Positions 44,074 through 46,643 of a stretch of 64,000 nt of DNA are shown piece after piece. Within the stretch, counting starts at the first letter, position 1. The number at the start of each line of letters is the position of its first letter. The translations under genes and the position numbers were made by a program. Source of the DNA: Listeria monocytogenes (GTDB taxonomy: Bacteria; Bacillota; Bacilli; Lactobacillales; Listeriaceae); NCBI RefSeq assembly GCF_041765605.1, contig NZ_CP168900.1, forward strand, positions 2,558,001 through 2,622,000. Direction: 5' to 3'. The notes under the pieces were generated by a model that saw only the letters and a list, made by a program, of their open reading frames with translations, was not told the DNA's origin and searched no databases.

Positions 44074-44457
44074 ACTTTTTAGTTCGTAATAGGTAATTTC
44101 GTATTGCTCGATTGATCCACCGTAAGGATCTGGAATATCTGTTTTATCTTCGGAAATTAGTTGAATTTTATCGCTCGCTTTTGGAAAAAGGCTTTTTAGT
44201 TCCACTTGATGTTTTTGAGTCATTACGTAGATTTGGTCAGCCCAATCTATATCTGCTTCTGTAACTTTTTTAGCTTGGTGCGTTGTTGGCAAATTCATCT
44301 GCGCGAGAATTTGACGTGAATTTCCAGAGATAGCGTCCCCGTCCAAAGCACGTGTCCCAGCTGAACGAACATCTAGATCTGGGCGCAAATCCTGCAAGAT
44401 TTTTTCAGCTAAAGGACTTCGACACGTATTTCCTGTACAAACAAATAAGACATTCAT
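44050..44457 (-). CDS. ywlE: Protein-arginine phosphatase YwlE (low-molecular-weight phosphatase family)
   Basis: Low-molecular-weight phosphatase with the P-loop CTGNTCRSP: nucleophile Cys7, Arg13, and Thr11, the residue that in Bacillus YwlE gives preference for phosphoarginine over phosphotyrosine. The general acid lies in DIPDPYGG near the C-terminus. The 135 residues are slightly short but complete. It would reverse arginine marks made by McsB in the ClpCP pathway. Its ATG overlaps the ywlC stop (ATGA). Confidence 0.9.
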   Translation of the reverse strand: MNVLFVCTGNTCRSPLAEKILQDLRPDLDVRSAGTRALDGDAISGNSRQILAQMNLPTTHQAKKVTEADIDWADQIYVMTQKHQVELKSLFPKASDKIQLISEDKTDIPDPYGGSIEQYEITYYELKSAISERFL

Positions 44458-45491
44458 TCAGTAATCCTCCTATTGCCAGCAGCTTTTTCTAATCGGTTCA
44501 TAATTGCGGCTCCCAGCTCCGTTTCTGGATACACTTCTGCAAAAATAATATCTACATCCGCGTGATCAAAAGCCCGCAAACCTTTGTAAAGGCTCGTTGC
44601 AATTTCGTCCAATGCTTTTATACTCCCCGTTGTTTCAACCGCCGCACTTGTGGTCAGCTGATCTATCAGTTCTTTCGTCGCCAAAATGCCAAGTTTCTTA
44701 TTCGCAGCTTCTACTTTATTTATTTCCTTTTGCCAAAATGGAGTAGATCCTTCTATAAGATAAACCGGGGCTTTCGGAGCATAGTGCGTGTATTTCATCC
44801 CCGGGGCTTTTGGTTTTTCCGTTTCTTTCGTATTGTTTGTCGATATATCCACAGGGCCAATTACTTGCTCGATTTGTTCTTTTGTAATACCGCCTGGCCG
44901 CAGAATAATTGGCATTTCTAAGGAACAATCAATAACGGTAGACTCTAAACCAACACCAGTTGCGCCACCATCGATAATTCCAGCAATTTTCCCATCTAAA
45001 TCTTCTATAACATGGTCCGCTGTTGTTGGGCTGGGTTTTCCAGAACGATTCGCACTCGGAGCCGCAACAGGAACGTTCGCTGCGTTTATTAACGCTAGAC
45101 TTACAGGATGTTCCGGCATGCGGACACCAACTGTGGATAAGCCTGCAGAAACGTTCGCAGCCAAACTATCTTTTTTCAAAGGAAGGATAACCGTTAGTGG
45201 TCCTGGCCAAAATTTTTCCATGAGTTGGATGGCTTTCGGTGGATAACTTGCCACAAATGAATTCATTTGATCAAGGCGGGCGATGTGGACAATTAATGGG
45301 TTATCTGACGGGCGACCTTTTGCTGCATATATTTTTTGAATAGCGGCTTGGTTAGTTGCATCTGCTCCAAGACCGTAGACTGTTTCGGTTGGAAAAGCCA
45401 CGCATTCGCCATTTTGTAGTAATTCTGCTGCTTCTTGATAGATAGCTTGATTTGATTGTTGTTTGGTTATTTTCCAATGAATGGTTTGCAT
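44454..45491 (-). CDS. ywlC: Threonylcarbamoyl-AMP synthase (TsaC2/Sua5 type)
   Basis: Makes threonylcarbamoyl-AMP from threonine, bicarbonate and ATP for t6A37 of ANN-decoding tRNAs. The YrdC domain (about 12-200) shows AFPTETVYGLGADA, KGRPSDNPLIVHI, GPLTVIL, RMPEHP and APSANRSGKPSPT. The C-terminal Sua5 extension (about 230-345) marks the long form. It overlaps ywlE by four bases. The region directly upstream is a DnaA-box cluster, a place where B. subtilis ywlC also has one. Confidence 0.94.
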   Translation of the reverse strand: MQTIHWKITKQQSNQAIYQEAAELLQNGECVAFPTETVYGLGADATNQAAIQKIYAAKGRPSDNPLIVHIARLDQMNSFVASYPPKAIQLMEKFWPGPLTVILPLKKDSLAANVSAGLSTVGVRMPEHPVSLALINAANVPVAAPSANRSGKPSPTTADHVIEDLDGKIAGIIDGGATGVGLESTVIDCSLEMPIILRPGGITKEQIEQVIGPVDISTNNTKETEKPKAPGMKYTHYAPKAPVYLIEGSTPFWQKEINKVEAANKKLGILATKELIDQLTTSAAVETTGSIKALDEIATSLYKGLRAFDHADVDIIFAEVYPETELGAAIMNRLEKAAGNRRITE

Positions 45492-45597
45492 GAATTCCGG
45501 TCCCCTTTACATAACTTCTATTATATTTTAACGTTTTCCGCCTTATTTTTACAGTATTGTTTTTTAAAACCTGAAAATCGCTATTTTTGAACAAAAG

Positions 45598-45972
45598 TTA
45601 TCCCCAAACTGTGGATAATAACTTTGTCAATGGGGATAACTTCTTGTGAAATGTGGATAATTCGTAAAGCTAAGTAAAAAAGCCATTTTCTTTATTAAGA
45701 TTTGATTAAAAAAATTTTTTGCACAACATTTTATCCACAGTTTTGTGGATAACTTTCCAAAGAAAAAGACGCTTCTTTTATAGAAACGCCTTTATACCAA
45801 TATATTAGAGCATGTTACGTAGCGATCTTTTGAATTGATATCTTTGTGGATAATAATTGTAGAATGTGGATAACTTTTTTCGAATAATTGTTTTACACGC
45901 TCGCCTTGTGTATAACCTATCTCCACCCCTACCCAAAAAGAGGAATTTAGGACATATTTTAAGTTATCCACA
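45598..45972. other. DnaA-box cluster at ywlC/prmC
   Basis: Ten 9-mers in 375 bp. Perfect TTATNCACA matches: 45610-45618 (-), 45652-45660 (-), 45731-45739 (+), 45744-45752 (-), 45845-45853 (-), 45865-45873 (-), 45907-45915 (-, TTATACACA) and 45964-45972 (+). One-mismatch TTATCCCCA: 45598-45606 (+) and 45631-45639 (-). The first six are intergenic, the last four lie in the 3' end of prmC. B. subtilis has DnaA-binding clusters away from oriC, one of them at ywlC, that titrate DnaA. Confidence 0.88.
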
Positions 45973-46643
45973 AATCGTTCATAAATAGCGAGTCCATCAT
46001 TTTCAGCAAATAATGCTAATGAAGGTTCGTTTTTTAGCACATAATCCGACATTTCTGCTTTTTCTGCTTCAGAAATATAGGGCGGATTGGCGACAATCAT
46101 ATCGAATCGTTCTTCGTTTTGTTTAAATGCTTCAAGTAAATCTGTTTCGACAAAACGCACATCCGCATTTAATAACAATGCATTCTTTTTGGCCACGGCA
46201 AGTGCTGGAGCCGAAATATCAGAAGCCGTCATCGAAATCTCAGGAAATGCTTTTTTGAGCGCAATCGCGATAATCCCGCTTCCAGTACAAACATCTAGCA
46301 CGTTTTTAACTGAATGTTTTTTCAAAAAATCCTCCGCACAAGCGACTAACTCTTCTGTTTCAGGCCGCGGAATAAGAACATCTTCTGTCACTAAAAAATC
46401 ATAGCCATAAAAAGGTGCTGTTTTTAAAATATACTGCACTGGCTCGCCAGCTAAGTATCTAGCAAAATCTTCCTCGAATTGCTTTTCATGATTCGGTTCA
46501 AGTTCGCGATTAATTTCCATCCAAAGCTCAGAACGCGAAAGTCCCATTCTGGTTTCTAGTAAAATTTCTGCTGCATTTTGGTCTAGCCCTTTTTCAAGAA
46601 GGATTGCTTCAGCATTTTTTAGCAACTGACTAATTTGCGTCAT
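45792..46643 (-). CDS. prmC: Release factor glutamine methyltransferase PrmC
   Basis: Methylates the glutamine of the GGQ motif in RF1 and RF2. The SAM-binding motif is [15 protein letters not shown] (115-129) and the catalytic NPPY is at 186-189. An N-terminal helical domain of about 75 residues binds the release factor. The 283 residues are normal. Its start overlaps the end of prfA (RF1), its substrate gene, by 14 bp. The last 60 codons carry four DnaA boxes, which encode for example YPHS and IHKD. Confidence 0.95.

Follow-up and report, generated by a model that had tools for sequence, protein, structure and literature searches.

A conserved cluster of DnaA boxes at prmC and ywlC in Listeria monocytogenes, a probable counterpart of the Bacillus subtilis ywlC region

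What role might a dense run of DnaA boxes play in the chromosome of Listeria monocytogenes when it lies hundreds of kilobases away from the replication origin? The question is raised by the window analyzed here, a stretch of 64,000 nucleotides (positions 2,558,001 to 2,622,000 of contig NZ_CP168900.1), in which an exact-match scan finds eight TTATNCACA DnaA boxes packed into 363 bp (45610-45972). The prmC-ywlC gap (45492-45791) accounts for four of these, the other four falling within the 3' end of prmC. Family models name the neighboring genes as ywlC (44454..45491, minus strand; TIGR00057, 215.5 bits against a cut-off of 123.2), coding for the L-threonylcarbamoyladenylate synthase of t6A tRNA modification; prmC (45792..46643, minus strand; TIGR03534, 291 bits against a cut-off of 199.1), coding for the release factor glutamine methyltransferase; and, upstream of prmC, prfA, which codes for RF1. 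We take the product of the ORF at 44454..45491 to be the counterpart of B. subtilis YwlC. The t6A role given for YwlC in the accessible part of PMC4634966 supports this naming.

Proceeding from ywlC towards prmC, the cluster opens with b1, a TTATCCCCA variant box (45598..45606, plus strand), followed on the minus strand by b2, a TTATCCACA box (45610..45618), b3, a second TTATCCCCA variant (45631..45639), and b4, again TTATCCACA (45652..45660). Beyond a possible weak box of the form TTTTGCACA (45717..45725, plus strand) comes a head-to-head pair of TTATCCACA boxes, b5 (45731..45739, plus strand) and b6 (45744..45752, minus strand). The boxes within prmC are b7 (45845..45853) and b8 (45865..45873), both TTATCCACA on the minus strand, b9 (TTATACACA, 45907..45915, minus strand) and b10 (TTATCCACA, 45964..45972, plus strand). 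A further TTATCCACA box lies within ywlC (45132..45140, minus strand), 458 bp from the nearest cluster site. The original prediction, made from the letters of the window, had described eight perfect and two one-mismatch sites in 375 bp, with a head-to-head pair and an extension into the coding end of prmC. The eight exact boxes, the pair and the extension are all as described, but the one-mismatch sites within 45598-45972 number three, namely those starting at 45598 (+), 45631 (-) and 45717 (+). A consensus scan also places a terminator-like stem-loop at the prmC stop (45765..45793, minus strand); the scan found one such element against a mean of 0.3 in shuffles, and 14 of its 29 columns are invariant among 14 close relatives, making it suggestive only. 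The promoter scan returned three promoter-like sites against 3.6 in shuffles, none of them convincing for the ywlC strand near the boxes closest to that gene.

The density of the cluster is far beyond chance. The window holds 11 exact boxes, eight of them in the cluster span, compared with 3.69 +/- 1.86 in 100 shuffles, none of which reached 11; when one mismatch is allowed, the window as a whole is unenriched (92 sites against 89.2 expected). The genome, a single contig of 2,979,728 bp, has 175 exact boxes, and when this number was placed uniformly 2000 times, the most that fell within 375 bp was three, a maximum reached in 63 placements. Chaining the real boxes at gaps of up to 300 bp yields three groups of more than two boxes: eight upstream of dnaA, eight at ywlC/prmC and six at 344302-344734, near rlmH. 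Thus, the density of the ywlC cluster is matched genome-wide by oriC alone, and this genome has two large clusters outside oriC, at ywlC and rlmH. Smaller groupings call for more caution: since 128 of the 2000 placements gave at least three boxes in 500 bp somewhere, triples of this kind are by themselves weak evidence. Of the three-box places, that at 2929782-2930147 is the mnmE site discussed below, whereas that at 2856758-2857181, beside recombination-hotspot-type-like ORFs, we judge to be a chance occurrence.

Could the cluster then be an origin? The DnaA ORF starts at genome coordinate 1, placing the origin at the contig ends, 375.8 kb from the ywlC cluster, which is about a quarter of one arm. 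The original prediction was that the cluster is not oriC, that no dnaA lies nearby and that no AT-rich unwinding element can be recognized. The first two points hold: dnaA, dnaN and other initiation genes are absent among the neighbors of the cluster, which are ywlC, prmC and prfA, and the locus has no run of DnaA-trios longer than two, whereas the dnaA-dnaN origin has one of five. The third needs amendment, as a 40-mer of 85% A+T (45695..45734) does adjoin the head-to-head pair; however, such richness is not rare, 195 of the 63,959 40-mers of the window being at least as A+T-rich, and its longest DnaA-trio run is two. Given the short trio run and the lack of initiation genes, we reject a second origin. 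That the cluster is a dormant or former one, as might be imagined from its having the same number of exact boxes as the stretch upstream of dnaA and from the adjoining A+T-rich stretch, is exceedingly improbable in view of the short trio run, the absence of initiation genes and the ordinariness of that stretch.

If the boxes matter, selection should have left its mark on them. YwlC was found in all 25 genomes of the genus in which it was sought, and 14 close relatives, with pairwise identities of 0.82-0.98 over the upstream segment, were aligned. The identical 9-mer is present in 14/14 genomes at b1-b4 and b6-b9, in 13/14 at b5 and in only 9/14 at b10, the least conserved box; hence, nine of the ten listed sites are kept in at least 13. 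As both TTATCCCCA sites and the TTTTGCACA site are likewise kept in 14/14, conservation suggests that they too are real sites, and the place of b3 is taken by an exact box in several deeper members of the family. In the prmC-ywlC gap, 53 of 54 box columns are invariant compared with 176 of 246 other columns (p = 2e-6). Within prmC, third codon positions are invariant in 10 of 12 cases inside boxes as opposed to 53 of 267 outside them (p = 8e-6), with 9/9 invariant in b7-b9; moreover, b7, b8 and b9 are invariant as entire 9-mers, whereas none of the 759 non-box 9-mers of prmC is. Protein conservation is therefore not the cause of the persistence of the boxes in prmC. The outlying box in ywlC behaves similarly, with 9/9 columns invariant in the 14 genomes, a state found in 2 of 342 other 9-mers of the same phase. 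These substitution patterns show the box positions, b10 excepted, to be under purifying selection. They also answer the check proposed with the original prediction, namely an alignment across Listeria covering the synonymous sites of prmC: the 9-mers are conserved at those sites too, and the boxes are shared by other members of the genus, so that the prediction withstands its own refuting condition of boxes missing from other Listeria. One genome, G016, stands apart: its ywlC region is interrupted by N stretches, the ywlC match is split and the boxes are displaced (loci L013 and L029), which looks like an assembly problem; its locus L013, with 399 N, was kept out of the 14-genome alignment and retained for the upstream counts and the test described next.

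The boxes proximal to ywlC also have a fixed architecture. Read towards the gene, b4-b3-b2-b1 are spaced by 21, 21 and 12 bp, with the last box inverted, and in close relatives this module is placed some 107-169 bp before the start of ywlC. A search for four boxes at spacings of 20-22, 20-22 and 11-13 bp, with at most three mismatches over all four, recovered it, at 21/22-21-12 bp, in 34 of 36 family genomes, in five of the 89 genomes from elsewhere (among them Lysinibacillus sphaericus and Peribacillus deserti) and in none of the control stretches, the best of which scored 13; the named Bacilli loci entered this test as 27 of 34, with seven named Paenibacillus loci that have no upstream box left out. 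Outside the family, six of 13 close same-strand neighbors are 21 bp apart and nine of 15 close convergent ones 12 bp apart. Thus, the local arrangement is common to some other families, and the full module is missing in most.

How old is the association with ywlC? All 36 family genomes have at least two exact boxes in the 700 bp upstream of ywlC, and 31 have at least five, for a total of 238. The same region in 62 genomes of other families, picked non-randomly from 299 so as to spread over families, holds 98 boxes against 1.7 expected under a first-order model, with at least one box in 35 genomes, at least two in 28 and none in 27; the next 800 bp upstream shows mild enrichment (11 boxes against 1.6). 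Among 80 named ywlC loci, 34 were grouped as Bacilli by title (Roseburia sp. 1XD42-34 being counted with them); in the upstream flank available, 24 of these carry one or more boxes and 23 carry two or more, those without including 7/7 Paenibacillus, Sporolactobacillus, Exiguobacterium and Kurthia senegalensis. Among the remaining 46 named loci, 39 lack a box anywhere in the locus. Boxes upstream of ywlC are therefore widespread yet patchy and not universal. In family f15, one genome (L175) has five boxes upstream of ywlC and the other three (L173, L174 and L176) have one, none and one. Family f21 has boxes upstream of rlmH in 8/8 loci seen and none upstream of ywlC in the two looked at.

Two sister loci widen the picture. 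The six exact boxes at 344302-344734 lie between an htrA-like gene and rlmH, the gene that we take to be yydA of B. subtilis; at least five boxes occur near rlmH in 30 of the 36 family genomes, and in one (G031) the contig end is reached near rlmH without a box. Outside the family, the 29 best-matching rlmH loci include 25 with one or more boxes and 24 with two or more. In five family genomes (G003, G013, G019, G022 and G024) the cluster lies 4.7 kb upstream of rlmH, with a three-gene insert in between coding for a 6-phospho-beta-glucosidase-like protein, a LicT-type antiterminator and a beta-glucoside PTS (families as named for G013). This insert is common to the five, at 80-97% identity to the G019 copy; hence, the cluster has lasted through their divergence. 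The mnmE site (2929782-2930147; mnmE is trmE by its family-model name) has an abutting head-to-head pair of boxes upstream of mnmE, retained by 29 of the 30 family loci inspected (from 30 of the 36 genomes), and a third box inside a divergent carboxypeptidase-like ORF. The box loci at ywlC, rlmH and mnmE all adjoin tRNA or rRNA modification genes, which might reflect a functional link or coincidence.

In the present genome ywlC lies 376 kb to one side of oriC and rlmH 344.5 kb to the other. The two are on opposite sides of mnmE in all 10 genomes with usable coordinates, where they span 19.6-24.2% of the chromosome and ywlC is 181-326 kb from mnmE. This count left out three single-contig genomes, the gappy G016 along with G026 and G035, of which the latter two were read by hand: G026 keeps the opposite sides, whereas G035 resembles B. 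subtilis in having rlmH and ywlC on the same side of mnmE (roughly 0.21 and 0.50 Mb away). Opposite placement is thus not conserved, and the idea of a timing device based on symmetry about oriC is rejected; rlmH has changed arm within the family (g1 genomes versus G035).

Taking these lines together, we propose that the Listeria locus is probably the counterpart of the B. subtilis ywlC cluster, serving as a conserved platform for DnaA that holds back initiation and perhaps also represses ywlC. The proposal starts from what was observed: box density, conservation, silent-site constraint in prmC, module spacing, a gene linkage that extends across families, and the persistence of the rlmH cluster away from rlmH. 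DnaA binding, sequestration and ywlC repression in Listeria we infer. Briefly, several DnaA molecules would bind the extended platform, presumably in a cooperative manner. Situated roughly one quarter along its chromosome arm, the platform would be replicated early and so doubled soon after initiation, and the doubled platform might then take up DnaA that would otherwise return to oriC. Together with the rlmH cluster and the boxes at mnmE, the platform could lower the free DnaA available to oriC and thereby restrain untimely re-initiation, whereas DnaA at the proximal module would probably also lower ywlC transcription.

The chief competitor, which we regard as possible though rather unlikely, holds that the boxes mainly let DnaA regulate ywlC, and perhaps prmC, thus tying t6A modification to replication, with any effects on initiation being incidental. 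It draws on the repression by B. subtilis DnaA of ywlC and of the yyzF-yydABCD and trmE operons, as reported in the accessible parts of PMC4447404, PMC8203912 and PMC12112137 (the last for ywlC itself), on the position of the proximal module relative to the ywlC start and on the clusters staying beside the same genes across families. Half of the ywlC cluster is inside prmC, making simple promoter control an ill-fitting account, and the three conserved prmC boxes are 354-424 bp from the ywlC start, past the possible terminator, with no convincing promoter for the ywlC strand near the module. Further, the rlmH cluster has been kept despite the insert that separates it from rlmH; this survival 4.7 kb away, along with the conservation of boxes within prmC, favors a role beyond promoter control. 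Nevertheless, several considerations weigh against the sequestering platform. Gene-linked conservation and the change of arm by rlmH suit gene regulation or plain inheritance equally well, and 27 of the 62 genomes from other families are without a box within 700 bp upstream of ywlC. In B. subtilis itself, beyond the repression of ywlC, an approximately tenfold overproduction of DnaA did not cause over-initiation (PMC13220808, in the part available), and a review holds, in its accessible text, that no cluster playing a significant role has been identified in that organism (PMC5295017).

Two further accounts deserve mention. The 9-mers might bind another protein, or they might be chance products of base composition or the remains of a repeat element, a view for which the off-consensus TTATCCCCA sites could speak. 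However, oriC of this genome is built of identical 9-mers, and chance is excluded by the density, the box-limited conservation and the fixed spacing, so that we give this very little credence. A broader idea, offered only tentatively and as more doubtful than otherwise, is that the sites at ywlC, rlmH and mnmE are what is left of an ancient DnaA network of the Bacilli with a fixed architecture, in which DnaA would be stored near oriC and would also link RNA-modification genes (TsaC, RlmH and MnmE, joined by the gcp region in B. subtilis) to the state of replication. The box spacing at rlmH is 13, about 148 and 92 bp, compared with 21, 21 and 12 bp at ywlC.

That B. subtilis has a DnaA-box cluster at ywlC was already known; what is new here is the Listeria counterpart, with evidence for its age, for selection on silent sites and for its spacing. 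Within the freely accessible literature searched, we found no paper on DnaA boxes at the ywlC locus of Listeria, no DnaA-binding or replication data for Listeria, and no printed statement on cluster age, silent-site selection or fixed spacing. The role of clusters outside oriC is debated in B. subtilis, since a strong phenotype requires the removal of six. If boxes have been retained at three of those loci in a relative that does not sporulate, and one cluster has outlived separation from its gene, then they must be visible to selection, however mild the effect of single deletions. Having fewer large clusters (this genome has two outside oriC), Listeria bears on the question of initiation timing as against gene control.

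The B. subtilis ywlC region is said to be among the six clusters of that organism described by Okumura et al. in 2012. The Listeria ywlC locus has neither the run of DnaA-trios nor the dnaA/dnaN neighborhood of an oriC, and is best compared with known systems outside origins. The proposed logic, early-replicated boxes drawing DnaA away from oriC, recalls E. coli datA and the high-density DnaA-box zone near oriC (PMC12371093, accessible part); datA differs in acting by IHF-assisted ATP hydrolysis, and B. subtilis is described as being without datA and IHF in the available text of PMC13220808. Closer parallels come from the B. subtilis clusters, the loss of six of which leads to early initiation (PMC5295017 and PMC13220808, as far as the text available goes). 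Regions 8 (yydA, upstream of which DnaA binds) and 5 (trmE) in the accessible part of PMC4447404 are echoed by the six boxes at htrA-like/rlmH and the head-to-head pair at mnmE, the differences being that rlmH is on the other arm in the g1 genomes, relative to both G035 and B. subtilis, and that the mnmE site here has few boxes. The nearest likeness is to region 6 of the same source, where DnaA binds upstream of ywlC in vitro at nine sites with a Kd of 0.25 uM in the presence of ATP. Binding is thus demonstrated in B. subtilis and predicted for the Listeria boxes; the Listeria cluster adjoins prmC and enters its coding end, that of B. subtilis being downstream of ywlB; and two box positions of the module are TTATCCCCA in Listeria. 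Compared by position and box number, the two agree, with nine sites reported there and eight exact boxes here, and the counterpart named in the original prediction matches region 6 in position. The core of that prediction, a DnaA-box cluster that is not oriC, corresponds to the B. subtilis ywlC region and is conserved down to the silent sites of prmC, accordingly stands, and the initiation control suggested with it is probable: like region 6, the Listeria locus has several consensus boxes upstream of ywlC, far above chance, within a few hundred kilobases of oriC.
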